From Dehalococcoidia bacterium (lineage in GTDB: Bacteria > Chloroflexota > Dehalococcoidia > Dehalococcoidales > JAUXAP01): a stretch of 45,451 bases of DNA. The stretch lies in the NCBI GenBank assembly GCA_030619865.1, contig JAUXAP010000007.1, positions 1-45,451 on the forward strand, given 5' to 3'. Below the pieces are notes generated by a model that was not told where the DNA came from, did not search any database, and saw only the letters and a program-made list of their open reading frames with translations. Both the position numbers and the translations under genes were made by a program. This document shows, piece by piece, positions 7,973 through 29,934 of the stretch; positions within the stretch are counted from its first letter, which is position 1; each line of letters starts with the position of its first letter.

Positions 7973-9532
7973 CTGGATACTCTATTAACTCACTCGCCCA
8001 TCTTGATAATAGCTATACCCCTACTGGCGGCATTCTTAACGCCGCTAATAGGTAGGATAAGTGGAAAGGCCAGAAACATATTCGTAATAACCAGCCTGGC
8101 ATTTGTAGGATTTCTGGTTATTATCCTGGCAAGGGATATCTTCCTCAATGGGTTGCATGTCTATACACTCGGTGCGGCTGAACCTATCCCCGCGGGTTAT
8201 ATGGTGCCCGTGCGCATAATGCTGGAAGTAGACAGCCTATCCATATTTATGGGCATAATAACGGCCACTATTTCTCTGATAGCGGTTATATACTCTTTTT
8301 CCTTTATGAAAGGGGAAACAGGACACAATAGGTTCTACACCCTCCTGCTACTTTTGGTGGCAGGCATGTTTGGAATGGAATTCACCGGCGACATGTTCAA
8401 TCTATTTGTGTTCTTAGAAATAGCTTCCATTTCTGGAGCAGCGCTGGTAGCTTTTAGAATAAGGTTTGCCGATTCACCAGAAGGTGGATTCAAATATATA
8501 GTTGTTTCTGCCATTTCGGCTTTGATGGTTCTATTTGCTATTGGCTTATTCTATGCCCAGTATAATTTGCTCAATATAGGGGCTCTTGCCCAAGCAATGC
8601 AATATACGATGCTGGACAAGATGGCTTTAGCCATACTGATAGCCGCCTTTGCTATAAAGCTAGGGACAGTGCCCATGCACATGTGGCTCCCTGATACCTA
8701 TTCTGTTGCCCCAGCCAGCATAACAGCTATGCTGTTAGCGGCAAGCCAAGCATCCATGTATGCTCTTTTCAGGATATGTTTTACCCTCTACGGGGTTACC
8801 CTAAACCTAGCCACAGTAGGATGGATAGTGATAGTCCTCGGTTTATTTAGCATGTTCATCGGGGTCACTATGGCTCTCCGCCAGACAGACCTCAAGCGCT
8901 TGATAGCCTATAATTGTGTCTGTGAGAGTGGGTTTATACTACTTGGGCTTGGGGTTGGTCTCGCCGTTTTAGGTAATCCGGGAGCTTTAGCCACTTATGG
9001 AACGATGGCTATCAGTGGTGGCATCTTCCATATGATAAATCACGCTCTATTTGAAGGTCTTCTGTTCCTAGTCGCCGGGGCTATTTTCTATCGCATCGGC
9101 ACCAGAAACCTCAATGAGATGGGTGGCCTCGGTCATCTTATGAAGTTCACATCAATATTGTTCTTACTTGGAGCTTTGGCCAGCTCTGGTATCCCTCCCT
9201 TCAATGGCTTTGCCTCAAAGATATTGATTTATGAGTCTGTATACCAGTTCAATCCAATCCTAGCCATAATCGGCATATTGGTGTCAATTATAACTTTGGC
9301 TGTCTTTATGAAGGCCTTTTTCTCCGCCTTTACCGGACCGGTGCTGCCTAAATATAAGGATGTAAGAGAAGTACCAAAATCGATGATGATTGGCATGGCC
9401 ACTCTGGCTGTAATCATTGTTCTCTTTGGTCTGTTCCCTGGACTGGTTCGTGAGTGGCTAACTGACCCTGCAGCTAATGCTCTAATAAACCAGGGAGCAT
9501 ATATCGAAGGGGTTATGGGAGTTGTTCCGTGA
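7973..9532 (+). CDS. mbhH: Membrane-bound hydrogenase subunit MbhH (MrpD-like ion-pumping subunit)
   Basis: This is the large antiporter-like subunit, with about 14 membrane helices and the proton_antipo_M domain. FNLFVFLEIASISGAAL provides the conserved membrane Glu, and AIKLGTVPMHMWLPDTYSVAP the conserved Lys plus the WLPDxYxxAP motif. The in-frame TTG at 8003 cuts into the first helix and has no ribosome binding site. A CTG at 7973 has AAAGGG 7 to 12 bases upstream (overlapping the mbhG stop) and restores a normal N-terminus (MDTLLTHSP...). I therefore use 7973, giving 519 residues. It is expected to move H+ or Na+ across the membrane using the redox energy of the hydrogenase arm. Confidence 0.88.
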   Translation: MDTLLTHSPILIIAIPLLAAFLTPLIGRISGKARNIFVITSLAFVGFLVIILARDIFLNGLHVYTLGAAEPIPAGYMVPVRIMLEVDSLSIFMGIITATISLIAVIYSFSFMKGETGHNRFYTLLLLLVAGMFGMEFTGDMFNLFVFLEIASISGAALVAFRIRFADSPEGGFKYIVVSAISALMVLFAIGLFYAQYNLLNIGALAQAMQYTMLDKMALAILIAAFAIKLGTVPMHMWLPDTYSVAPASITAMLLAASQASMYALFRICFTLYGVTLNLATVGWIVIVLGLFSMFIGVTMALRQTDLKRLIAYNCVCESGFILLGLGVGLAVLGNPGALATYGTMAISGGIFHMINHALFEGLLFLVAGAIFYRIGTRNLNEMGGLGHLMKFTSILFLLGALASSGIPPFNGFASKILIYESVYQFNPILAIIGILVSIITLAVFMKAFFSAFTGPVLPKYKDVREVPKSMMIGMATLAVIIVLFGLFPGLVREWLTDPAANALINQGAYIEGVMGVVP

Positions 9533-9545
9533 TATGGAGCTATAG

Positions 9546-9890
9546 ATGTTAATTGGACAATCTGGCTTTGCTTTCTGGAACCCTATCGTTTGGGTCATCG
9601 CCTTTATAGTGGTGATGGCAATAGCTTTCTTTTTCAGGAGTCGAGGGCAGAAAAAATATAAAAAGGATACTGCCCAAACGAAGATTTTCCTATCTGGCGA
9701 AGAGGTGCCTGAGGCAGAGGAGCGGCATGTGAGAGCGGACAATGTATACTGGGGATTCTTTGAAACCCTTAAAGGATACTATAGCGTAATTTTAAGACCA
9801 CATACGGGGATAATAAATGACTATATAATCTGGTTCATAGCTGTTATAGCTGTAATTGCCATAATAATCTTTATCGCGGGGGTAGTTTAA
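9546..9890 (+). CDS. mbhI: Membrane-bound hydrogenase subunit MbhI
   Basis: The 114-residue protein has one membrane helix near each end (about 10-30 and 92-113), joined by a hydrophilic loop with many charged residues. The loop contains VYWGFFETLKGYYSVILRPHTGIINDYIIWF (in part), similar to the segment that links the antiporter and hydrogenase modules in Mbh complexes. The assignment rests on this segment and on its exact position between mbhH and mbhJ. Confidence 0.82.
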   Translation: MLIGQSGFAFWNPIVWVIAFIVVMAIAFFFRSRGQKKYKKDTAQTKIFLSGEEVPEAEERHVRADNVYWGFFETLKGYYSVILRPHTGIINDYIIWFIAVIAVIAIIIFIAGVV

Positions 9891-9895
9891 GGGAT

Positions 9896-10330
9896 ATGAG
9901 TCTTAAGGCATTTAAGAGAGCACTTTGGGTTTACCACCTTAACACCGGGTCGTGCAATGGCTGCGACATTGAGATCCTGGCGGTGCTTACTCCCAGGTAT
10001 GATGTTGAGCGTTTTGGCATCAGGCTAGTTGGCACACCGCGCCACGCCGATGTATTACTGGTAACCGGTCCGGTGATTAAGCAGATGGTGCCGCGGGTCA
10101 AGCGCATCTATGCGCAAACACCTGACCCCAAGGTAGTAATGGTAATTGGTAACTGCGGTTCGGAAGGGGGAGTTTTCTACGAATCCTACAATTTGGCGGG
10201 GCCAATAGACCAGATTATACCGGTAACTGTTTATGTTCCCGGATGTCCCCCCAGACCTGAAGCCATTATTGAGGGAGTAGCTAAAGCCTGGGTAAAGCTG
10301 GAACAGCTTGAGCAGCAGGGGGTGTTATAG
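9896..10330 (+). CDS. mbhJ: Membrane-bound [NiFe] hydrogenase small subunit MbhJ (NuoB-like)
   Basis: This 144-residue protein is the minimal group 4 small subunit. Cys20 and Cys23 (GSCNGCDIE), Cys87 (GNCGSEGG) and Cys117 (PGCPPRPE) are the four ligands of the proximal [4Fe-4S] cluster. Other [NiFe] hydrogenase small subunits are longer and carry extra clusters, so the short length supports a group 4 complex. It has no twin-arginine signal, so the active site faces the cytoplasm. An AAGGG element lies just before its ATG. Confidence 0.92.
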   Translation: MSLKAFKRALWVYHLNTGSCNGCDIEILAVLTPRYDVERFGIRLVGTPRHADVLLVTGPVIKQMVPRVKRIYAQTPDPKVVMVIGNCGSEGGVFYESYNLAGPIDQIIPVTVYVPGCPPRPEAIIEGVAKAWVKLEQLEQQGVL

Positions 10331-10867
10331 GTGGAAATACTAAGTCCGCAAGCAATAGTTAAGAGCTTCAAGACCACTCTGGGAGGTGGTTTGATCGATT
10401 CCAAGATTTCGGAACGAGAAATTGCCGTCAAAAAGAATCTCTTCATAACAATTTGGATAAACGTAAAGAAAGAGGCGTTTAGAAAAGCAGTAGAACACAT
10501 CTGCCAACTCCAGGAATACCCCCATCTGGCAATAATCTCATCCTCTGACCTTGGAGATAGCGTTGAGCTGATATACCACTTCACCATATATTACGGGAAT
10601 CACCTTCAGGAGATATCACTGGGGCTTCGTGTCAGATTACCCAAAAAAGACCTGAAGATACCAACGGTTACCGACCTTATTCCCGGCGCAGTGTTTACTG
10701 AGCGGGAAACTCAAGAAATGATAGGAGTAGAAGTGGTCGGCATCCCGGATAACAGACGGCTGTTCCTGCCTGAGGACTTTCCAGAGGGTGTTTACCCCTG
10801 GAGAACAGACGAGAAGGGACTACCTAATGATATGTTTAGAGTGCTACCGGGGAGGAAGCCAAAATGA
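10331..10867 (+). CDS. mbhK: Membrane-bound hydrogenase subunit MbhK (NuoC-like)
   Basis: The 178-residue soluble protein belongs to the 30-kDa complex I subunit family. LRVRLPKKDLKIPTVTDLIPGAVFTERETQEMIGV (split around 102-137) and the ending RRLFLPEDFPEGVYPWRTDEKG are the typical NuoC elements. It should hold the large and small subunits together on the cytoplasmic side. The start is GTG at 10331, preceded by AGGGGGTG. It starts directly after the mbhJ stop and overlaps mbhL by four bases. Confidence 0.88.
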   Translation: MEILSPQAIVKSFKTTLGGGLIDSKISEREIAVKKNLFITIWINVKKEAFRKAVEHICQLQEYPHLAIISSSDLGDSVELIYHFTIYYGNHLQEISLGLRVRLPKKDLKIPTVTDLIPGAVFTERETQEMIGVEVVGIPDNRRLFLPEDFPEGVYPWRTDEKGLPNDMFRVLPGRKPK

Positions 10868-12108
10868 CAGTAGGTGAGACGAGAAAAGCAACTTATACTA
10901 TACCTATAGGTCCAATTCATCCGGCGCTAAAGGAACCGGTTCGGCTTGACCTTACCATTGATGGTGAAGAGGTTGTGGGGGTAGATGTCGCCCTGGGACA
11001 CGTCCACCGCGGTATAGAATGGCTCGGGATGCATAGAAATAATCCTATCCAGAGCTTATACCTAGCAGAACGGATATGCGGCATCTGCAATGTATGTCAT
11101 CCATTTGCCTTTGCCATGGCTGTTGAGCAAGCGGCTGGAATCACTCCACCGGAACGCGCTGAATATATAAGGACTATTATCGCTGAAATGGAGCGAATAC
11201 ATTCCCATCTACTATGGGCAGGGGTTGCCGCTCACGAGATTGGCTTTGACACTATATTTTATCTTGCCTGGCGTGTCAGAGAAGACATAATGGACGTGAT
11301 GGAATACGTGACCGGAAACCGAATTACCAAGGGCATGTTTCAAATCGGCGGGGTGAGAAGAGATATTACCGCCGAACAACTCCCCAGGATTAGACAATCC
11401 CTGGAATACTATAAGAGCATATTTGGCCAGCTTAAAAGGGTGTTCTTGGATGATAGGACGATACGGATGCGGACAAAGAATGTAGGCATCCTGAAGAGAG
11501 AAGACGCTCTAAAACTACTTACGTGTGGACCAACGGGTAGAGCGAGCGGCGTAGCCAAAGATGTCAGGCAAGACCAGGCTTATGCTGCCTATGCCGATTT
11601 GGACATTAAAGCCATCACCCCTGACATACTCACCGGCACTGTCGTTGGTGATGTCTATGACCGGATTATTGTTCGATTACTGGAGGTTAAGCAGTCAATT
11701 GAAATCATCGAGCAGTGTATAGAAAAAATGCCATCTGGTCCGATACTGGCGCAACCAAAGACGGCAGCACTTCTAAATGCACTAACCAAAGCCGAAGGTG
11801 AAGGCATCGGGCGAGCTGAAGCACCCAGGGGTGAAGTCATACATTATGTTCGTTTAGAAGCCGGGAGAGAGACCGTCTCCACCTGGAAAGTAAGAGCTCC
11901 CACCTATACAAACCTAATGGCAATGCCAACACTTCTCATTGGTGGGCAAATTGCTGATGTCCCCATAGCTTTTGCCTCTATTGACCCCTGTTTCTCATGT
12001 ACCAATAGAGCGGTTATTGTTGATAGAAAAACAAATAAGAAATTTTTGCTTACCGACAAGGAATTGCGTGAACTCAGCATCGAAAAAACGAGGAAGCTAA
12101 AGTGTTGA
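10864..12108 (+). CDS. mbhL: Membrane-bound [NiFe] hydrogenase large subunit MbhL (catalytic)
   Basis: The 414-residue protein has both nickel-binding pairs: RICGICNVCH with Cys72 and Cys75, and DPCFSC with Cys376 and Cys379. Both pairs are intact, so this is a true hydrogenase rather than an Mbx/Mbs-type sulfur-reducing homologue or NuoD. The protein continues for 32 residues after Arg382 (DPCFSCTNR). This matches the length and pattern (VVD...KEL...SIE) of the tail that HycI removes from E. coli HycE, and a HycI-like protease gene lies at 13566-14045. The active site should reduce protons with electrons from ferredoxin. It overlaps mbhK by four bases and the mbhM start by seven. Confidence 0.95.
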   Translation: MTVGETRKATYTIPIGPIHPALKEPVRLDLTIDGEEVVGVDVALGHVHRGIEWLGMHRNNPIQSLYLAERICGICNVCHPFAFAMAVEQAAGITPPERAEYIRTIIAEMERIHSHLLWAGVAAHEIGFDTIFYLAWRVREDIMDVMEYVTGNRITKGMFQIGGVRRDITAEQLPRIRQSLEYYKSIFGQLKRVFLDDRTIRMRTKNVGILKREDALKLLTCGPTGRASGVAKDVRQDQAYAAYADLDIKAITPDILTGTVVGDVYDRIIVRLLEVKQSIEIIEQCIEKMPSGPILAQPKTAALLNALTKAEGEGIGRAEAPRGEVIHYVRLEAGRETVSTWKVRAPTYTNLMAMPTLLIGGQIADVPIAFASIDPCFSCTNRAVIVDRKTNKKFLLTDKELRELSIEKTRKLKC

Positions 12109-13115
12109 ACTTACTAGGTATCGACAATCCCCTAGAACTCGCGGTAATAATCGTTGGTTCATTTATTCTGGCACCGGTCTTCGGGATGCTTTATCGAGGT
12201 ATAGACCGAAAGCTGGTGGCTCGCATGCAGGGGAGGATAGGCCCACCGATAATCCAGCCCTTCCGTGATATCCGAAAGCTACTTATGAAAGAAAATATCA
12301 TACCTGATGGTGCTATCCAATGGCTGTTTACCGCCGCTCCGTTTATCGCCCTGATAGCTTCGGCTTTATTACTGCTTTACATACCCCTGTTTGGGCGAGG
12401 AGCACTTTTAGGCGGCACTGGTGACGCGATATTAGTATTATACCTGTTGATAATACCATCTCTAGCCTTTGTCTTAGGCGGCTTTGCTTCCAGTTCACCC
12501 TATGCCACGGTGGGTGCGCAACGTGAGATGGTCCTGATGATGAGTTACGAATTCCCTCTGGCCGTGGTTATAGTCACTCTCGCCTCGCGTATCGGGCTGG
12601 TCACCAACGCTAATCCATTTATGTTAGCTACGATTGCCGCAAATCCCATATGGAACTTAGTCGGTCCACTAGGAATTGTGGGGGCGTTGATACTGGTGTT
12701 TACCCTCATAGTGGTTACAATCGGGGAAGCCGCCAAGGTACCGTTTGACATAGCCGAGGCAGAAACTGAGATTGCCGGTGGATTACTGGTTGAATATTCA
12801 GGCAGAAACCTGTCTTTGTTCTACCTTGCCGATATCATAAAGGCTTTTGCCATGGTATCACTGGTAGTTGCTTTATTCTTCCCATACAACCTCTCTCCTC
12901 TGGTCGGAATTGGCATACCCGTCCTTGCCGGCATAGTAGACGGCTTATTCTTCCTCATCAAGGTTTTTGTGGTAATGTTCCTCAGTATAACACTAATACG
13001 CACGGCAATGGCGCGATTTAAGATAAGCCAGGTAAGCTACATCTATATAATCGCCATGACACTGATAGCTCTGGTTGGTTCAATACTAATAGGGATAGAT
13101 TTACTGGTATTTTGA
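12102..13115 (+). CDS. mbhM: Membrane-bound hydrogenase subunit MbhM (NuoH-like membrane anchor)
   Basis: The 337-residue protein has about eight membrane helices and NuoH landmarks: ARMQGRIGPP (about 40-49), VPFDIAEAETEIAGGLLVEYSG (about 209-230) with conserved acidic residues, and a final helix cluster. It anchors the hydrogenase arm in the membrane and connects it to the ion path. The start is GTG at 12102, inside the end of mbhL, so translation is coupled. Confidence 0.92.
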   Translation: MLNLLGIDNPLELAVIIVGSFILAPVFGMLYRGIDRKLVARMQGRIGPPIIQPFRDIRKLLMKENIIPDGAIQWLFTAAPFIALIASALLLLYIPLFGRGALLGGTGDAILVLYLLIIPSLAFVLGGFASSSPYATVGAQREMVLMMSYEFPLAVVIVTLASRIGLVTNANPFMLATIAANPIWNLVGPLGIVGALILVFTLIVVTIGEAAKVPFDIAEAETEIAGGLLVEYSGRNLSLFYLADIIKAFAMVSLVVALFFPYNLSPLVGIGIPVLAGIVDGLFFLIKVFVVMFLSITLIRTAMARFKISQVSYIYIIAMTLIALVGSILIGIDLLVF

Positions 13116-21896: not shown

Positions 21897-22616
21897 TTAT
21901 CCTTTACCAGTTACCAGTTTCTCAGGAAAACTGCTGCCCTTTAGCTGCTCCAGCGCCTTCTTAGTATCACTGGCAACCCTAGTTTTATCACTTTGCTCAA
22001 ACCGGTACTTAAATAGCCAGTAGGTAAACTCCTTTAGCTCGGTCAGGCTTATAGACCTAACCTGAGGGTAGCCTTTCTCCCGTCTAAACCGCTTCAGCAA
22101 TACCGTTTCAGTAGCCCCATATATCCGCCGGTAAACCTCGTTAGCAGTATCATGCCCTTTATTATAACCCAAAGTCCACCTCTCCTTGCGCACCTCTTCC
22201 TGCACTGCCAAAAATAAAGCCTCCTCCACAGTAATGCCATAAAAGTAGTTAAGATATTGATGATATTTATCACCGATAAGCCCCTTGAATTTACTTACAG
22301 TCAGGTTAAGTGGTGGCTCACCATGGAAAAGAAGAGCCGTCTTCTGCTCGTCAGGCAATAAGCTATCTACCGCCTCACACAGGCGCTCAGCCAGAATCAG
22401 CCAGTCAAAGGCTTCACCAGCGATAAGGTAGCGATAGGTTCGCCCGTTATGGGTCTCCTCAGCAGTAGTCCATAACCCAATAGCCTCAAGCAGAGCAATA
22501 TACCAGTGCTTCCCACCGGTGATAGCTTGCTCTAAATGTCTTATTACCTCAGCATCTCCTGCCGGAGTTAACTGAGAGGATGGTACCTGGTTATCTAAAT
22601 CGGTCACTATCATCAC
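21897..22616 (-). CDS. Conserved-looking hypothetical protein downstream of polX
   Basis: The 239-residue soluble protein has no membrane segment and no motif I recognise. It is rich in aromatic residues: GKHWYIALLEAIGLW near 36-50, YHQYLNYFYG near 119-128, and a helical C-terminus with ELKEFTYWLFKYRFEQSDKTR. The gene begins right after the polX stop. GTG 22616, ATG 22613 or GTG 22607 could start it. The last has AAGGTG at a proper distance. Translational coupling to polX suggests a related role, but no function can be assigned. Confidence 0.75.
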   Translation of the reverse strand: MMIVTDLDNQVPSSQLTPAGDAEVIRHLEQAITGGKHWYIALLEAIGLWTTAEETHNGRTYRYLIAGEAFDWLILAERLCEAVDSLLPDEQKTALLFHGEPPLNLTVSKFKGLIGDKYHQYLNYFYGITVEEALFLAVQEEVRKERWTLGYNKGHDTANEVYRRIYGATETVLLKRFRREKGYPQVRSISLTELKEFTYWLFKYRFEQSDKTRVASDTKKALEQLKGSSFPEKLVTGKG

Positions 22617-22617
22617 C

Positions 22618-24336
22618 TTAGTATGATGTAAAATAGGCTATAACTTCCTTCAATGGTCTGGTATTCAGTATGTCCTGCGTCTGGCACCAGCCCCGCCTGG
22701 CCACCCCCACCCCAAAGCGCATAAAGCTCAGACGCTCAATGCTATGGGCGTCGGTGTTAATTACCAGTTTTACCCCTAGCTCTCTTGCCCGATAGGTATG
22801 AATGTCTTTAAGGTCAAGCCGATTCGGTGCAGCGTTGATTTCCACTATAGTATTAGTTTTAGCCGCCGTTTGCAGGACAGCCTCCATATCTACTGCCACC
22901 GGCTCCCTATCTGGCAACAGACGACAGGTAGGATGAGCCAGCACATCTACATTAGGATTCTCAATAGCTCCTATAATTCGCCTTGTCATCTGCTCTTCAC
23001 CCTGATTCAGGCCAGAATGTACCGCTGCCGTAACAATATCCAGCTCTGCCAGAAGCTCGTCAGGTATATCCAGGCTGCCGTCGGCACGAATATCCACCTC
23101 AATACCGGTGAAGATATGAATGCCATCTAATTTCTGGTTGACTTTCTTGATTTCCGATATTTGCTGCTTCAGCCGTTCCGCATTCAGCCCGTGGGCAATG
23201 CCACGTCCACCCGAATGGTCAGTGATTCCCAGATACTGATAGCCAAGGTCTCTGGCAACTAGTGCCATTGTCTCAATAGTATCATGGCCATCACTCCAGT
23301 CGCTATGAACATGGAGGTCTCCCTTTATGTCAGGTAATTCAACCAGCTTGGGTACAGTGCCTTGCTCTGCTCTTTCTATCTCTGGCCCACCCTCTCTTAT
23401 CTCGGGTGGGATAAATTGCAGACCCTGCCGCTTGTAGAAAGCCTCCTCGGTGACAAATTTCTCCAGCTTTTCAGTTGCCAGGTCAGTGATGCCATACTCA
23501 CTTAATTTTAGTCCCTGCCGGTGTGCCCTCTCCCTGAGGTTGATATTATGCTGTTTACTGCCGGTAAAATACTGGAGCAAAGAGCCAAATGAGTCGTGTT
23601 CAACAATTCTCAGGTCAACCTGAAGCCCGCCGGAAACGACCACGCTCGCCTTGGTTGTACCGCTGGCTAAGACCTCCCTGACCTGAGGCAAGGTAACAAA
23701 GGCTTGAATTACTTCCCTGGCATTATCGGCAGTGCCCATAATATCAATATCGCCTATTGTTTCCCGAAAACGGCGCAGGCTTCCGGCTGGAGTCAGGTTC
23801 TTTAAACCAGGCAACCCCTTGAGTCTAGCTGAAATCTCATCTACTACCGGTAGTGCTTCACCGATAGGGATGCGCTGGTCTTTTCTCCTTAGTGCCTGAA
23901 TGTGTCGCAGGATGTTTTCGGTTACCTTATCTCCCATACGGGGCAGCGAAGCCACCTTACCGCCAACGATAGCTGCCTCTAGTTCATCTACTGTCTTTAT
24001 GCCAAGCTCACCGGATAGCAGCATAGCTGTCTTAGGACCAATGCTGGGTACATCAAGCAGGGTGCTAATGCCTTCGGGGAATTCAGCTTTCAGTTTCTCG
24101 TAGTAATCAAGCTTACCGGTGGTTACCAGTTCGGTAATCTTCTTGGTGATAGCCTCCCCCACCCCGGGGATTTCTTTTAACCTATCCTCAGCGGCTAGTT
24201 GCTCCACTTCAACCGAGAGGTGGTCAATAGAACGAGCCGCCCTCTGGTAAGCCCTTATCTTAAACGGGTTCTCCCCCTTAAGCTCCAGAAGGTCAGCAAT
24301 ATCCTCAAATACTTTGGCAATTTCACTGTTCCTCAT
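22618..24336 (-). CDS. polX: Family X DNA polymerase with PHP domain (PolX)
   Basis: The 572-residue protein has the bacterial PolX arrangement: helix-hairpin-helix 8-kDa region (IPGVGEAITKKI, about 55-66; VPSIGPKTAMLL, about 95-106), nucleotidyltransferase palm (GSLRRFRETIGDID, with catalytic Asp pair in GDID; third acidic residue in VDLRIV), and a C-terminal PHP domain from about 335. The PHP domain has the metal-binding HVHSDWSDG, ITDHSGG, EVDIRADG and INTDAHS elements. It is expected to fill short gaps in base-excision repair and to have 3'-5' exonuclease activity. The ATG overlaps the end of the preceding 80-residue gene by 14 bases, with GAGAGG upstream. Confidence 0.95.
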   Translation of the reverse strand: MRNSEIAKVFEDIADLLELKGENPFKIRAYQRAARSIDHLSVEVEQLAAEDRLKEIPGVGEAITKKITELVTTGKLDYYEKLKAEFPEGISTLLDVPSIGPKTAMLLSGELGIKTVDELEAAIVGGKVASLPRMGDKVTENILRHIQALRRKDQRIPIGEALPVVDEISARLKGLPGLKNLTPAGSLRRFRETIGDIDIMGTADNAREVIQAFVTLPQVREVLASGTTKASVVVSGGLQVDLRIVEHDSFGSLLQYFTGSKQHNINLRERAHRQGLKLSEYGITDLATEKLEKFVTEEAFYKRQGLQFIPPEIREGGPEIERAEQGTVPKLVELPDIKGDLHVHSDWSDGHDTIETMALVARDLGYQYLGITDHSGGRGIAHGLNAERLKQQISEIKKVNQKLDGIHIFTGIEVDIRADGSLDIPDELLAELDIVTAAVHSGLNQGEEQMTRRIIGAIENPNVDVLAHPTCRLLPDREPVAVDMEAVLQTAAKTNTIVEINAAPNRLDLKDIHTYRARELGVKLVINTDAHSIERLSFMRFGVGVARRGWCQTQDILNTRPLKEVIAYFTSY

Positions 24337-24565
24337 CAGCGGTAAGCCTCTCCCTTATCCGCTCCCAATCCGGGTTACCGTGATTAAAGAACGACTCAAA
24401 ATTACCCTTCAGCCGCTCATAATAGTCGCCCTCAGCATAGTTATCTTGAACATACTGGTAGAAAGCCCCCACCAGACCATCCATAGGAATATCCTTAGGG
24501 ACCTTCAGACCTGAGTCCTCAAACTCCGAATCCAAAAACTCTTTAACAACCTGCCTAGTAAGCAT
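24323..24565 (-). CDS. Small acidic hypothetical protein upstream of polX
   Basis: The 80-residue acidic, soluble protein contains VVKEFLDSEFEDSGL, PMDGLVGAFYQYVQDNYAEGDYYERLKGNFESFF (in parts) and a final DWERIRERL, and is predicted mostly helical. It starts at ATG 24565 after a GGGGAG ribosome binding site and its end overlaps polX. I do not recognise a family. The overlap and good ribosome binding site support it as a real gene in the same transcript. Confidence 0.72.
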   Translation of the reverse strand: MLTRQVVKEFLDSEFEDSGLKVPKDIPMDGLVGAFYQYVQDNYAEGDYYERLKGNFESFFNHGNPDWERIRERLTADEEQ

Positions 24566-24579
24566 GTTTAGAACTCCCC

Positions 24580-26484
24580 TTATCTAAATCTCCAATTTGC
24601 GACTACCTCGTGTATTCTATGTAGGTATTTCTTTTGTAAATCATTGACTGCAACGTTGAAGGAGTCAATTTCCCTACCAGCAACTAAAGGGGCTTCAGCA
24701 CTTCCTAGTTTTCTTAGTGCCAGCACCCTACAAAATGCCTCCCCGACAAGTTCTGCTAAGATTACTTTTCCCTGCTCAGTCTCAACTCCCTCTAAATGTT
24801 CGCCAAAGTAATTTGCAACAACAGGGAACTTTGTATAGACCTTAATTTCTGCTGTGTCCTCTTTGTATTCTACCCGCTGTGGAGGATTAGGGGTTGGGTC
24901 TGGTGTAATGTCACGGATAAACCCTCCCTTCATTCCTCCACCCTTTCCCTGTTTCTTACTGAGCGGATGCACTTTGACATGTGTTATCGCTTTTTGCCCA
25001 TTCAACTCACAGTGTATATCGGTCTCTTCTTCATTGACTCTTCCAACTACCTTAAAAACACCATAGCATAAATTAGGGTGCCCCTTGGAACGCTGGTCAA
25101 GGCTAATATGCTGTGATAAAAGCTGAATATTCATGTTATCTGACCGTAAAGTCACTGTACTTCCAGTTAGCCTAACCAATTCCAACGGAGCATAAACCCC
25201 AAAAGACCGAGGTTTATCAGCCTCAATATATGCGTATCTTGGAAGTATGGTTAACTCGTCAATGGTCTCTGTTGGTTCAATAGACGGTTGCCATTCTTCA
25301 AATTCTTTTTTCGCTAATTCATTTAGCAGATTGCATAATTTCCTTAGCATTTTCTTTGTAGGTTCGGCTACCTCTTTTTTCTCTTTCCCTTTTTCTAGTT
25401 CTCTCTTTTTCTCTTGAATCAAAGGGTCTAAAACCTTTTCTATCATGCCTCCAATAGCTTGGCAATATTCGTGACGCCATTCAATTCCCCCACGATTGAA
25501 ATCGATTATCCCTGTTTCTCCTTGTCTGATTTTTTCCGATATTCCCTCGCAATAAGCTTCACCAAAGAAGTAAAAGGCAGCTGGGTCATTATCGTATCTA
25601 AAGAGTCGGTTATCTAAGATGGACGCCTCCGTTTTTATTAGAATTCCAGCTTTTGCAAATGGGTTTAGACGTGGTGAGTCTAGCGGCACAGAGCCCTCAG
25701 AAATTCTCAGCCTTATTGAATCACCATATTCCGCAAGTTTTAATTCTTTGTCATATACCACTTTGCCTTTCGTAGGCTCAAACAAGATGCTTATGTTGCT
25801 TCTCTTTATGTCCTTGCCCTTTTCGAAGCCTGCAAAGTGTAGAAGCACCTTTCTGTTCTCAGAAGAGGTTATCCCTCTCAAAGCATAATGATCTCGAATC
25901 TGCTCCTTTAGTTTATCGCACTCCGGGACTGTTATTTTCTCGTTGGTTACCCTTATTTTCACTAAAGTGCCATTCCCTTGCTCAATGCCCACACTGTGTC
26001 TTAACTCTGTAGAAGCATTTGGCACTTCTTCGCTTGGACACCACTTAGGTCTCCTTACTTTTTCATCCCACCACATCTTTGCTGCATTGAGGGTATTGTC
26101 CTTGATTGTATATATCTCTCCCTCTCCTAAAGCAATGATAGCTTCTTTTAACCCACGCCCAAACAATCCTCTGACAGTACGCCCTGCTTCAAATCCGCTT
26201 GTCTCTCCCGCAAACTCTACTGCTTTCTCTAACTTTTCTCTTGTCATACCCTCGGCGTAATCTCTCATCCAAAAATCCTTACACACTCCACCCTTTTGTC
26301 TAGTAACAAAAATTTCTATCTTGCCATTAGCTTCAATTCCCTGATCCTCAAGGCGCCTGTAGCTATCATCACAGTTAGTAACCAGTTCCACTGCTGCGTC
26401 AACAAGGCTCCTTATTGAAGCGTCAGCCGATTGCTTAGCAAATCTGGGATTCATAGGGAGTTCACGCTCTTGCTTAAATTCCAT
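24580..26484 (-). CDS. GHKL-fold ATPase (HSP90/gyrase B/MORC-like), unknown role
   Basis: The protein (634 residues from ATG 26484) starts with a GHKL ATP-binding domain. Its N box is ELVTNCDDS (33-41, Glu33, Asn37, Asp40), the G1 box MRDYAEGM (73-80) and the G2 box RGLFGRGLK (105-113). About 380 residues follow with no kinase, helicase or protease motif that I see. They include a charged helix (KKRELEKGKEKKEVAEPTKK) and, towards the C-terminus, a Gly/Pro-rich linker (KGGGMKGGF...PDPTPNPP). No membrane segment is present. AAGGAGGGG precedes the ATG, one base after the upstream gene's stop, so they are coupled. By eye the GC content is lower than in secA or polX. The overall type resembles ATPases found in DNA-handling or anti-phage systems, but no known system is recognised. 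Confidence 0.85.
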   Translation of the reverse strand: MEFKQERELPMNPRFAKQSADASIRSLVDAAVELVTNCDDSYRRLEDQGIEANGKIEIFVTRQKGGVCKDFWMRDYAEGMTREKLEKAVEFAGETSGFEAGRTVRGLFGRGLKEAIIALGEGEIYTIKDNTLNAAKMWWDEKVRRPKWCPSEEVPNASTELRHSVGIEQGNGTLVKIRVTNEKITVPECDKLKEQIRDHYALRGITSSENRKVLLHFAGFEKGKDIKRSNISILFEPTKGKVVYDKELKLAEYGDSIRLRISEGSVPLDSPRLNPFAKAGILIKTEASILDNRLFRYDNDPAAFYFFGEAYCEGISEKIRQGETGIIDFNRGGIEWRHEYCQAIGGMIEKVLDPLIQEKKRELEKGKEKKEVAEPTKKMLRKLCNLLNELAKKEFEEWQPSIEPTETIDELTILPRYAYIEADKPRSFGVYAPLELVRLTGSTVTLRSDNMNIQLLSQHISLDQRSKGHPNLCYGVFKVVGRVNEEETDIHCELNGQKAITHVKVHPLSKKQGKGGGMKGGFIRDITPDPTPNPPQRVEYKEDTAEIKVYTKFPVVANYFGEHLEGVETEQGKVILAELVGEAFCRVLALRKLGSAEAPLVAGREIDSFNVAVNDLQKKYLHRIHEVVANWRFR

Positions 26485-26485
26485 T

Positions 26486-27103
26486 TCACCCCTCCTTTTC
26501 AGACAAGGCTTGCCCACATGCTTCTAGGAAATCAAGCAATTTTACTTCATTATAATCACTAGCCAAATTTTCAGCATATTGGAAATTTTGTTTTAAAACC
26601 TCTAAAGGAGTCTCCAAAGTACATCGGAGAAGACCCCTTAACTCCATTTCGGCCACTGAAAAACCTTCTCTATCTTCTAAAAACCTCCTGAACGCAGCAC
26701 TTTCCTTTAGAAAATAAACAAGCGCTGTGTCAGCACCCCTAAGAGGTTTTGGGGTAGTTTTTCCAGCTATTCCTGAACTTACAAACAAGTGTTCTGTTTC
26801 CTCTGCTACCTTTTCACCAAATCTAGTGAGTGAAAATAGGGTCTTGATACCACCAACAACCCATCCTCTTTGACGGAGCGTCCTCACAGGACGGTCAAAC
26901 TTAAGGGAATCAGGCCATTGTGGATAGCGAGAAAAACCGAATGCTTTTGGGAACAAGGTAAAGCATTCTTTAACCAGTCGCTCAAATGAGCATCCCTCGC
27001 CGTTTCTAGTCACAGAGTAAATGCCAAAAACAATCAGATTCTCTTTCGGAATCCTATTATATTTCTCCTCAGGGAATGCACTCGCGAAATGGTCAGTATT
27101 CAT
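26486..27103 (-). CDS. Hypothetical protein, possible winged-helix domain, partner of the GHKL ATPase
   Basis: The protein has about 205 residues from ATG 27103. Its N-terminal half (ENLIVFGIYSV...SFERLVKECFTLFPKAFGF, then PVRTLRQRGWVVGG and LFSLTRFGEKVAEE) has the helix-helix-wing pattern of a winged-helix DNA- or protein-binding domain. The C-terminal half is helical, with LKESAAFRRFLEDREGFSVAEMELRGLLRC. The start is uncertain. ATG 27103 overlaps the upstream stop and has GAAGAGG directly beside it. ATG 27118 or 27151 would extend it. Its stop is one base from the ATPase start, so the two products probably work together. The winged-helix call is inferred from pattern only. Confidence 0.72.
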   Translation of the reverse strand: MNTDHFASAFPEEKYNRIPKENLIVFGIYSVTRNGEGCSFERLVKECFTLFPKAFGFSRYPQWPDSLKFDRPVRTLRQRGWVVGGIKTLFSLTRFGEKVAEETEHLFVSSGIAGKTTPKPLRGADTALVYFLKESAAFRRFLEDREGFSVAEMELRGLLRCTLETPLEVLKQNFQYAENLASDYNEVKLLDFLEACGQALSEKEG

Positions 27104-27284
27104 CCTCTTCAACACCATTCCAGCAATCAAGGTGACAAGCGTAGCGAACACAAGAGCCTTGAAAATCTAATTCATCACCCGACTTCCTTATTTCCCCTTC
27201 AGCTACAACAAGGATATTCTGCCTTTTCTTCATCGGTTCTCCACACTTATCACAGGTGGTAACGCCTAAATGAGCCTCCATCAT
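27093..27284 (-). CDS. Small zinc-finger-like protein directly downstream of secA
   Basis: The 63-residue protein contains CDKCGEPM (11-18), a hydrophobic strand NILVVAEGEI, and near the end GSCVRYACHLDCW. The CxxC...C...CHxxC pattern suggests one or two zinc sites, LIM-like in spacing. The start at ATG 27284 is set by a strong AGGAGG 6 bases upstream. A longer frame to 27332 runs into secA and is not used. It lies 13 bases after the secA stop, so it should share the secA transcript, and it overlaps the next gene. The function is unknown. Confidence 0.72.
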   Translation of the reverse strand: MMEAHLGVTTCDKCGEPMKKRQNILVVAEGEIRKSGDELDFQGSCVRYACHLDCWNGVEEDEY

Positions 27285-27297
27285 TGTGAGCCTCCTC

Positions 27298-29934
27298 TCA
27301 CCTTCCGCAGCAGTATTTGTATTTTTTGCCACTGCCGCAGGGGCAGGGGTCGTTGCGACCTATCTTCTTACCCTTAACCTTGAGCTTTTTACCAACCCTA
27401 CCACTTCCAGCGGCTACCTGAGCTGCCACCGGTGCCCTCCGTGGAGCCTCCGGTCGGGCAAGGCTGACATGAAATATAGTACGAGCCACATCATGCCGAA
27501 TAGTGTCCATCAGCACCTGAAATTGCTCATATCCTTTACGCTTATAGGCATCTATTGACTTTACCTGACGCAAAGTCTGCCATCCTGCCTCCAAGCGCAT
27601 ATGCTCCATATTAGTCAGGTGCTCCACCCACAGGTTGTCAATGTTGCGAAGCATTATCAGGCGCTCCAGCTGCCTCATACTATCGGCGCCCAACTCCTTC
27701 TCTCGCTGTTCATACATAGCCTCGGCTTGCTCAACTAGCTTATCTTCAATCTGCTTTGGCTTCATCTGGGAAAGAGCATTAGTGTTGAATGCTGGCGGTA
27801 AGGGAAAGATAGTGGAGACGTCAGCAACTAAGTTGGCTATATCCCCATTGCCACGCTCACACCCAGCATGAGCTGCCACCATACCCTGGATTTCCTCTCT
27901 AACCATTGACAGGATGTTTGCCTTCAGGTCAGCGCCACTTAGTATCTTTCCTCGCTCACCATAAATAAGCTCACGCTGCTTATTAACTACATCATCATAC
28001 TCCACCAGCTGCTTACGTATATCAAAATGGTAGCCTTCTACCCTGACCTGGGCACTTTCAATAGACCGGTTTACCAATCTATTCTCAATAGGGGTATCCT
28101 CACCCATACCCACCAACTCCATAAAGCCCTTAATTCGGTCACCGCCAAAACGGCGCATAACATCGTCCTCCAAAGACACATAGAAGCGAGAACTACCGGG
28201 GTCGCCCTGCCGCCCGGCTCTACCCCTGAGCTGGTTATCAATTCGTCTTGCCTCATGCCGCTCGGTGCCAATAATATGAAACCCGCCGAGTTCGACAATT
28301 TTCTCATGCTCCTGCTGCCACTCCTCCTCGTCTCTCCCTTCAGGGTTTCCACCCAGTATAATATCAACGCCACGCCCAGCCATATTGGTCGCCACAGTTA
28401 CCGCCCCTGGTCGCCCTGCCTGAGCGATGATACCAGCCTCTTTCTCATGGTGCTTAGCATTAAGTACCTGGGACGTGATACCCTTCCTCTTTAGCTGGTC
28501 ACTCAGCTCTTCCGATTTCTCAATTGATACGGTGCCGATTAGCACCGGTCGCCCTTCCCTGCTAAGCTGCTCCACTTCACGCACCACCGCCCGGAATTTA
28601 GCCTTCTCATCCTTGTAAATCTGGTCCGGGTGGTCTATACGGACCATTGGCTCATTGGTAGGAATAACCACTACCTCAAGCTTGTATATCTTGTAAAACT
28701 CCTCAGCCTCAGTCGCCGCCGTGCCGGTCATCCCGGCCAGCTTGTCATACATACGGAAGTAGTTCTGGACGGTAATGGTAGCAAATGTCCTAGTCTCCTG
28801 CCGAACTTTTACGTGTTCTTTGGCTTCTATTGCCTGATGCAATCCGTCTGAGTACCGACGGCCGAGCATTAACCGACCAGTGAACTCATCAACAATAACC
28901 ACTTCTCTATCCTTGGTAACCATATATTGTCGGTCTCGCTTATATAATTCCTTGGCATTAAGGGCATTTCTCAGGTGGCGCATCAGGTCAGCGTTAGCTG
29001 GGTCATAGAGGCTGGCTGACTTTAATAATCCTTCTCGCTTGAGCATTCTTTCCACATTGGCATAGCCGATGTCAGTAAATTCTACACTGCGCTCCTTTTC
29101 CTTAATTTCATAGTCTCGCCCTCTTTCAAGGCGAGGGGCAAGCCGGGCAAATACTTGATATCTCTGTGTTGCCTCTACATCAGGAGCGCTGATAATAAGC
29201 GGAGTACGTGCTTCATCAATAAGGAGGTTATCTACCTCATCGACAATGGCATAGTTTAACGGACGTTGAACACACTGGGAGGGGTCAACAACCATATTGT
29301 CCCGCAGGTAGTCAAACCCAAACTCACTACTGGTGCCATAGGTAATATCAGCCTCGTAAGCCTCACGGCGGGAGATAGGGCGAAAATGGTGCCACCGCTT
29401 CTCCCCTGAATCGAAGCTGGGGTCATAAAGTCGGGAGGGAGCACGCTCATCTGGCGCCTGCTGAGGATAACTACTGGCGACACTTACGCCTAAGGCGTGG
29501 TAGATAGGTGCCATCCAGTAGGGGTCTCGCCTAGCTAGGTAGTCATTAACTGTAACCAGGTGGCAGCCCCGACCGGTAAGGGAATTGAGGTAAAGGGAGA
29601 GAGTAGCCACCAGAGTTTTACCCTCACCAGTCTTCATCTCAGCTATTTTGCCCTGGTGAAGGACAATGCCCCCCATCAACTGGACATCGAAGTGACGCTG
29701 CTCTATGGTGCGCTTAGCCGCCTCACGAACAGCAGCAAAAGCCTCAGGCAGAAGCTCATCAAGCGAACTACCAGCTTTAAGCCGCGCCTTAAACTCATCA
29801 GTCTTGCCCCGAAGCTCAGCATCAGTGAGCCGCTCAAATTCAGGCTCCAGCACATTTATTTCATCTACTATTGGCTGTAGCCGCTTCAGCTCCTTCTCAT
29901 TAGAATCAACAAGAATACCTAACCATTTGAACAT
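27298..29934 (-). CDS. secA: Preprotein translocase ATPase SecA
   Basis: The 878-residue protein has the full SecA layout: DEAD-like motor with Walker A MKTGEGKT (about 98-105) and VDEVDNLLIDEA, preprotein cross-linking region, second motor domain with MAGRGVDIILGGN and QLRGRAGRQGDPGSS, helical scaffold, and a C-terminal zinc tail (CPCGSGKKYKYCC). It drives protein export through SecYEG. The ATG follows AGGGGTGAG and lies 9 bases after prs. SecA is essential, so the genes behind it are likely to be transcribed constitutively. Confidence 0.97.
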   Translation of the reverse strand: MFKWLGILVDSNEKELKRLQPIVDEINVLEPEFERLTDAELRGKTDEFKARLKAGSSLDELLPEAFAAVREAAKRTIEQRHFDVQLMGGIVLHQGKIAEMKTGEGKTLVATLSLYLNSLTGRGCHLVTVNDYLARRDPYWMAPIYHALGVSVASSYPQQAPDERAPSRLYDPSFDSGEKRWHHFRPISRREAYEADITYGTSSEFGFDYLRDNMVVDPSQCVQRPLNYAIVDEVDNLLIDEARTPLIISAPDVEATQRYQVFARLAPRLERGRDYEIKEKERSVEFTDIGYANVERMLKREGLLKSASLYDPANADLMRHLRNALNAKELYKRDRQYMVTKDREVVIVDEFTGRLMLGRRYSDGLHQAIEAKEHVKVRQETRTFATITVQNYFRMYDKLAGMTGTAATEAEEFYKIYKLEVVVIPTNEPMVRIDHPDQIYKDEKAKFRAVVREVEQLSREGRPVLIGTVSIEKSEELSDQLKRKGITSQVLNAKHHEKEAGIIAQAGRPGAVTVATNMAGRGVDIILGGNPEGRDEEEWQQEHEKIVELGGFHIIGTERHEARRIDNQLRGRAGRQGDPGSSRFYVSLEDDVMRRFGGDRIKGFMELVGMGEDTPIENRLVNRSIESAQVRVEGYHFDIRKQLVEYDDVVNKQRELIYGERGKILSGADLKANILSMVREEIQGMVAAHAGCERGNGDIANLVADVSTIFPLPPAFNTNALSQMKPKQIEDKLVEQAEAMYEQREKELGADSMRQLERLIMLRNIDNLWVEHLTNMEHMRLEAGWQTLRQVKSIDAYKRKGYEQFQVLMDTIRHDVARTIFHVSLARPEAPRRAPVAAQVAAGSGRVGKKLKVKGKKIGRNDPCPCGSGKKYKYCCGR

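Follow-up and report, generated by a model that had tools for sequence, protein, structure and literature searches.

A winged-helix protein and a MORC-like GHKL ATPase, a probable two-gene defence module at a secA-polX cargo site of Dehalococcoidia

Results

Anatomy of the locus

A winged-helix gene and the MORC-like GHKL-S5 ATPase gene behind it, located between secA and polX in a Dehalococcoidia bacterium, probably constitute a horizontally acquired two-gene defence module within a site for defence cargo. We infer from this location that the module acts against phages or other foreign DNA: the same slot is filled with changing anti-virus genes in relatives, and the pair is therefore probably an undescribed defence module. 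Neither the pair nor the secA-polX hotspot was found in the open-licence literature searched. The genes concerned are arranged as follows within the window, i.e. the whole stretch of 45,451 nucleotides that was analysed.

27298-29934, minus strand: secA, upstream border of the hotspot
27093-27284, minus strand: zinc gene, encoding a small zinc-ribbon-like protein of 63 aa with CxxC and CHxxC motifs; first resident gene of the site
26486-27103, minus strand: winged-helix gene, 205 aa, encoding an N-terminal winged helix and a C-terminal helical domain; partner of the ATPase
24580-26484, minus strand: GHKL-S5 ATPase gene, 634 aa, with a MORC-like fold followed by an all-beta region and a helical tail
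24323-24565, minus strand: p80, encoding a small acidic protein (pI 4.4); closes the cargo on its downstream side
22618-24336, minus strand: polX, downstream border of the hotspot
21897-22616, minus strand: a 239-aa protein, family unassigned; next core gene past polX

The initial annotation had described an AT-rich, tightly coupled same-strand run between secA and polX, and both the gene coordinates and the base composition (GC of 0.423 against approximately 0.50) bear this out. The winged-helix gene overlaps the zinc gene by 11 bases, and the ATG of the ATPase gene lies one base past the winged-helix stop codon. The coupled run extends through p80 into polX, these two genes sharing 14 bases. 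Positions 24580-27284 have a GC content of 0.423, compared with 0.506 for secA, 0.497 for polX and 0.467 for the window; a value as low is reached by 2.1% of the 2.7-kb stretches of the window, and similarly AT-rich stretches exist elsewhere in it, e.g. at 1-2000. A PADLOC scan of five proteins from the run gave no match, there being no model for the ATPase or the winged-helix protein, and searches with PHROGs and NCBIfam yielded nothing useful. By eye and Pfam, the run contains no SFII helicase, nuclease or methylase. Residues are numbered below as in the search queries, which relative to the called genes carry one extra N-terminal residue in the case of the ATPase and 16 in that of the winged-helix protein.

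The secA-polX site receives defence cargo

We sought polX and secA in 61 genomes, the window's own included, and found secA in 57. Forty stretches were taken for their useful secA or polX positions, a non-random choice, and 33 of these could be assessed once four without secA and three more without the next core gene had been left out. In these same-order genomes, the secA-polX site holds less than 0.45 kb (down to 6 bases) in 22/33 cases and 0.9-3.6 kb in the other 11. The pair is absent from the site in all 33, with polX present in most, and the ATPase occurs in none of the 40 other same-order genomes. Relatives with secA and polX but without the genes had been proposed as a check, and the outcome agrees with the initial view of a foreign-looking insert behind secA. 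The genes are furthermore not universal in the class, differ in base composition from their flanks and match no housekeeping complex, so that neither of the two observations named at the start as refuting was made.

Known defence genes occupy the same site in other genomes. Insert GC is below flank GC in 11/11 filled sites, and in all 11 the cargo is of a defence type, with Pfam matches above the curated cut-off in 10 and below it in G040. The classes represented are restriction-modification, modification-dependent nuclease, toxin-antitoxin and PD-T4-2-like, and the Pfam assignments are as follows.

G027: HNH and methylase
G021, G018: EVE
G029: GmrSD_N and RelA_SpoT
G014: GmrSD_N and a 166-aa gene
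G002: PIN
G003: BanI-like enzyme and methylase
G523: BsaWI enzyme and methylase
G040: YhcG-like nuclease, weak
G519: methylase and HNH
G522: methylase and MvaI/BcnI enzyme

The G014 gene matches the PADLOC model PD-T4-2_A with an E-value of 4e-156; PD-T4-2 is described as guarding its native strain from T4 (PMC9519451). The N4/N6 methylase family PF01555 is found at 5/33 sites against 0.04 expected (P 8e-10), the expectation following from 130 occurrences in 79 Mb (rounded genome sizes) and 24 kb of gaps. Identified cargo genes run, by eye, in the direction of secA at the filled sites, which fits the use of the secA transcript; expression of the pair probably rides on the secA operon. The secA-cargo arrangement is also seen in other orders of the class, with EVE, BsaWI-type, PD-T4-2-like and methylase-HNH cargo among the matches listed for 19 stretches, a biased set because p80 or the zinc gene was the ground for selection. 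The secA-polX interval is a defence-cargo site that recurs across the class. P2/P4 hotspots reportedly also hold variable defence cargo between constant borders; in contrast, two core genes, secA and polX, form the borders here, and the filled sites showed no integrase.

The zinc gene and p80 belong to the site

The initial annotation had proposed a three-gene cassette made up of zinc gene, winged-helix gene and ATPase gene. Its description of the first as a small zinc protein stands, the cysteines of the CxxC and CHxxC motifs being the sole support. The cassette, in contrast, does not hold. The zinc gene is also present at the site in G014, G523, G040 and G516, with a weak match in L030, as well as in the class-sample genomes G277, G696, G658 and G614. 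It precedes differing cargo, namely a PD-T4-2-like system (G014), a BsaWI-type restriction system (G523) and a nuclease (G040), and elsewhere occurs without the ATPase, save for the weak L030 match. Because of this shifting company we take the conserved unit to be two genes, in line with the 74/80 loci at which these are paired (see below).

At the other end of the cargo, p80 encodes an acidic protein of 70-80 aa (pI 4.1-4.4 in the four measured). It comes last in the cargo of G027, G021, G029, G014 and G523, stands alone at the site in G011, G514 and G012, and closes cargo away from secA, or on stretches without secA, in G593, G671 and G690. It adjoins the ATPase in L030-L032; in L031 and L032 it follows the pair between ATP synthase genes. 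An exclusive partnership of p80 with the pair is ruled out by its presence at the end of other cargo and on its own. In the class sample, p80 is found in 17/245 genomes and the zinc gene in 7/245. The two would be site genes that frame exchanged cargo, and p80 may serve for framing, for regulation or as a DNA mimic. In G028 (L126) and G006 (L165) the first codons of the zinc gene remain just past secA and run into polX (by eye), 5-prime scars that look like the result of cargo deletion. Separately, a diverged relative of the zinc gene was noticed by eye at approximately 3738-3971 of L258 (G575), between two aminoacyl-tRNA synthetase-like genes.

The winged-helix protein is the near-constant partner of the ATPase

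With a 14-row alignment as query, a scan of GTDB contigs retrieved 236 ATPase relatives, and the best 80 of the 236 were used. A profile search located the winged-helix gene at 74/80 of these loci, directly upstream and on the same strand in 72 (median gap 7.5 bases) and downstream in 2. The six loci without it are L047, L048, L055, L068, L099 and L100: the first four form one clade in the ATPase tree, L100 is outside the tree's sample, and L099 is cut by a contig end and starts 59 bases before the ATPase gene. Even the distant 750-800-aa ATPases of L026-L028 have a winged-helix gene just upstream (E-value approximately 1e-10 or better). No other neighbour is as constant across the ATPase loci, and the conserved unit is two genes, those of the winged-helix protein and the ATPase. 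The ends of the pair were searched for inverted repeats at 26 loci, and no common terminus was found. In many Anaerolineales loci the pair is preceded by a 511-aa gene that has no Pfam match and by eye resembles a membrane glycosyltransferase; this gene was dropped.

The predicted structure of the winged-helix protein (pLDDT 87.7) places the winged helix at residues 28-126, followed by a helical C-terminal domain. Foldseek returned no match at E < 0.001, and Pfam a below-cut-off match only; on re-examination of the Foldseek list, the best structural match of the winged helix was AF1382 (Z 10.8). When a family was missing from such structure lists, as STAS proteins are, this was given no weight against it. 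The model thus upholds the earlier call of a probable DNA-binding winged-helix protein. In the Anaerolineales proteins, the two domains are often separated by a long A/K/P-rich stretch; the three linkers measured (L020, L022 and L024) are 52-70% A+K+P and carry a charge of +41 to +50. These strongly basic linkers are reminiscent of histone H1 tails.

Regulators such as MntR and DtxR have similar winged helices, and the pair could in principle be a GHKL kinase with a winged-helix transcription factor that controls its neighbours in the manner of CapK/CapS. CapK (an HTH-STAS-GHKL kinase) and CapS (a STAS-wHTH repressor) are described upstream of immune operons (PMC13373217), so that here too GHKL and winged-helix proteins meet at immune loci. 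However, Pfam identifies no STAS domain in the ATPase or the winged-helix protein at E-values up to 1, the ATPase, equipped with an S5 transducer, matches MORC, HSP90 and TopoVI-B, and the neighbours vary by locus, with no constant controlled operon. We consider this regulatory reading improbable.

The ATPase combines a GHKL domain with an S5 transducer

By its N, G1 and G2 boxes, the ATPase is a member of the GHKL superfamily. The boxes had been reported as complete, and are indeed invariant in 43/43 homologues, at residues E34, N38, D41, D76, G80, G110, G112, K114 and T174. HATPase_c_3 was the sole Pfam match (E-value 1.4e-5). The predicted structure (pLDDT 89.1, pTM 0.63) is more informative: over residues 11-369 it can be aligned, at Z 19-21, to the ATPase modules of MORC3, MORC2, SMCHD1 and TopoVI-B, and HSP90 is also matched. 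The best structural matches are the eukaryotic MORC3 (5ix2; Z 21.2, RMSD 3.7 over 304 aligned residues), MORC2 (5of9; Z 21.2) and SMCHD1 (6mw7; Z 20.9). As the match covers residues 11-369, an S5 transducer lies behind the GHKL domain, and the model further contains a strand-rich region at approximately 413-507 and then a helical tail. The statement that the ATPase lacks a recognisable further domain has accordingly been superseded.

Pfam detects no nuclease domain, TIR domain, CW finger or SMC hinge. Past residue 369, R538 is the sole invariant position, and conservation stays below 90% at every acidic or lysine position. A conserved catalytic site would thus be missing past the S5 domain, which speaks against cutting.

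Our comparison with known families covered the MORC S5 motif, the paraMORC3 nuclease and the CapK/CapS STAS domain. As described by Iyer (2008; PMC2292703), prokaryotic MORC and paraMORC proteins are GHKL plus S5 ATPases with a patchy, laterally spread distribution near restriction-modification genes, and the ATPase studied here is alike in each respect. It differs from strict MORCs in that the published S5 motif GhXhhpXXRhl occurs in 0/43 members, and from the MORC/paraMORC proteins of that account in its constant winged-helix partner. VcSduA/paraMORC3 (Shedu) likewise has a GHKL ATPase in a defence setting, and its phage defence is reported to need this ATPase (PMC12137116); there, a C-terminal PD-(D/E)xK nuclease is fused to it in one protein, whereas here two proteins are present and no nuclease was matched. 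Members of the MORC2/MORC3 and SMCHD1 families are described as silencing transposons and genes; unlike these, the pair has neither CW finger nor SMC hinge by Pfam, and the partner is a separate protein. The protein is a MORC-like ATPase with a near-constant winged-helix partner, in which the GHKL-S5 combination that defines (para)MORCs is present and which would work like them.

Spread and mobility of the pair

The ATPase was found in 15/400 genomes of the phylum, the window's own included, and relatives occur in many bacterial and three archaeal phyla. The window and L030 are sisters in the ATPase tree (100/98), nested among records from Spirochaetota, Bathyarchaeota, Bacteroidota and Nanoarchaeota, and L037 and L039 are sisters across domains (100/100). 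The cross-phylum records are mostly MAGs, for which binning errors are possible, and the spread may be inflated. Searches of viral contigs, plasmids and phages did not find the ATPase.

The pair might alternatively be a module for chromosome maintenance or repair that acts together with PolX. polX lies within the stretch at 21/80 GTDB loci. In the window and L030 it follows as the next core gene, and at 20 Anaerolineales-type loci it lies close by on the opposite strand. The ATPase is close to fixation in one Anaerolineales genus (10/12 genomes), and together these observations leave room for a resident chromosomal role. Most close relatives elsewhere, however, have no polX nearby, the 33 assessed same-order sites lack the pair with polX present in most, and the swapping of a repair partner for restriction systems is hardly expected. 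A repair module is therefore unlikely, if slightly less so than the regulatory reading.

More direct evidence on mobility comes from L034, in which the pair (8950-12960) is located between the two halves of a methylase(-HNH) gene. The halves match residues 14-79 (55%) and 77-265 (77%) of the G519 hotspot methylase. A stretch of approximately 10-13 bases recurs at either side of the insert, which is flanked by copies of a repeat end; 32 such copies, most of them single, occur in that genome, against 0 in the control. In L034 the pair therefore appears to have moved as a single unit. Downstream of the pair, L037 and L039 carry methylase fragments that share 63% identity with the G523 hotspot methylase; L095 has a methylase three genes away, 71% identical to the one in G027. 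Through this kinship, the same cargo pool is seen to meet the pair in unrelated genomes.

We compared near and far neighbours at 30 loci outside the main Anaerolineales group, near being within 2.6 kb (150/155 genes) and far 5.5 kb or more (130 genes). Among the PADLOC matches listed, the best type II methylase model hit 9/150 near genes against at most 1/130 far genes per methylase model, and mad2 hit 7 near against 2 far genes. The Pfam scan covered the near set, so that the near/far contrast rests on PADLOC; among the families listed, it counted N6_N4_Mtase 9, PIN 6, MazE 3, N6_Mtase 3 and Mrr_N 2 times. No helicase was among the best 25 Pfam families listed near the homologues, and housekeeping genes are common among the near neighbours too. 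The near/far contrast in defence genes is modest and partial.

Methylases or their fragments adjoin the pair in several phyla, which raises the question of whether it is a restriction-modification accessory whose methylase was lost or left behind. paraMORCs are described in restriction-modification operons (PMC2292703), and winged helices of type IV enzymes as reading 6mA (PMC11037411). Against this, no intact methylase is a constant neighbour, PF01555 is found 0 times in the window's own genome (58% complete), and the pair in L034 splits a methylase gene instead of partnering it. We give such an origin little credence, much as for the regulatory pair.

Discussion

For the two-gene defence module that we favour, a mechanism can be sketched from fold and conservation. 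The invariant ATP motifs and the MORC-like module point to an ATP-gated dimer acting on DNA: the ATPase may dimerise on ATP like MORC, HSP90 and TopoVI-B and close as a DNA clamp. Reading or loading of DNA would likely fall to the winged helix, which would recruit the ATP-driven clamp to foreign DNA. Since the pair has no nuclease site of its own, it would block, compact or mark DNA rather than cut it. More tentatively, and with some doubt on our part, the pair could be a prokaryotic counterpart of MORC silencing in bacteria and archaea, a nuclease-free clamp guided by the winged helix that traps or compacts invading DNA; in Dehalococcoidia it would be one of many interchangeable cargoes of the secA operon, exchanged between the zinc gene and p80 without a visible integrase.

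In plants and animals, transposons are silenced by MORC ATPases, whose prokaryotic relatives have been assigned to restriction systems on the strength of gene context. A widespread, nuclease-free two-protein form would make MORC-type handling of DNA accessible in a small and testable bacterial model. The secA-polX site itself offers a handle for discovery, as unassigned Chloroflexota genes located there are defence candidates by position.

A minor observation concerns polX, which in G515, G022, G024, G511, G015, G040, G519 and G522 is cut to approximately its first 90 residues, a small intact-looking gene.
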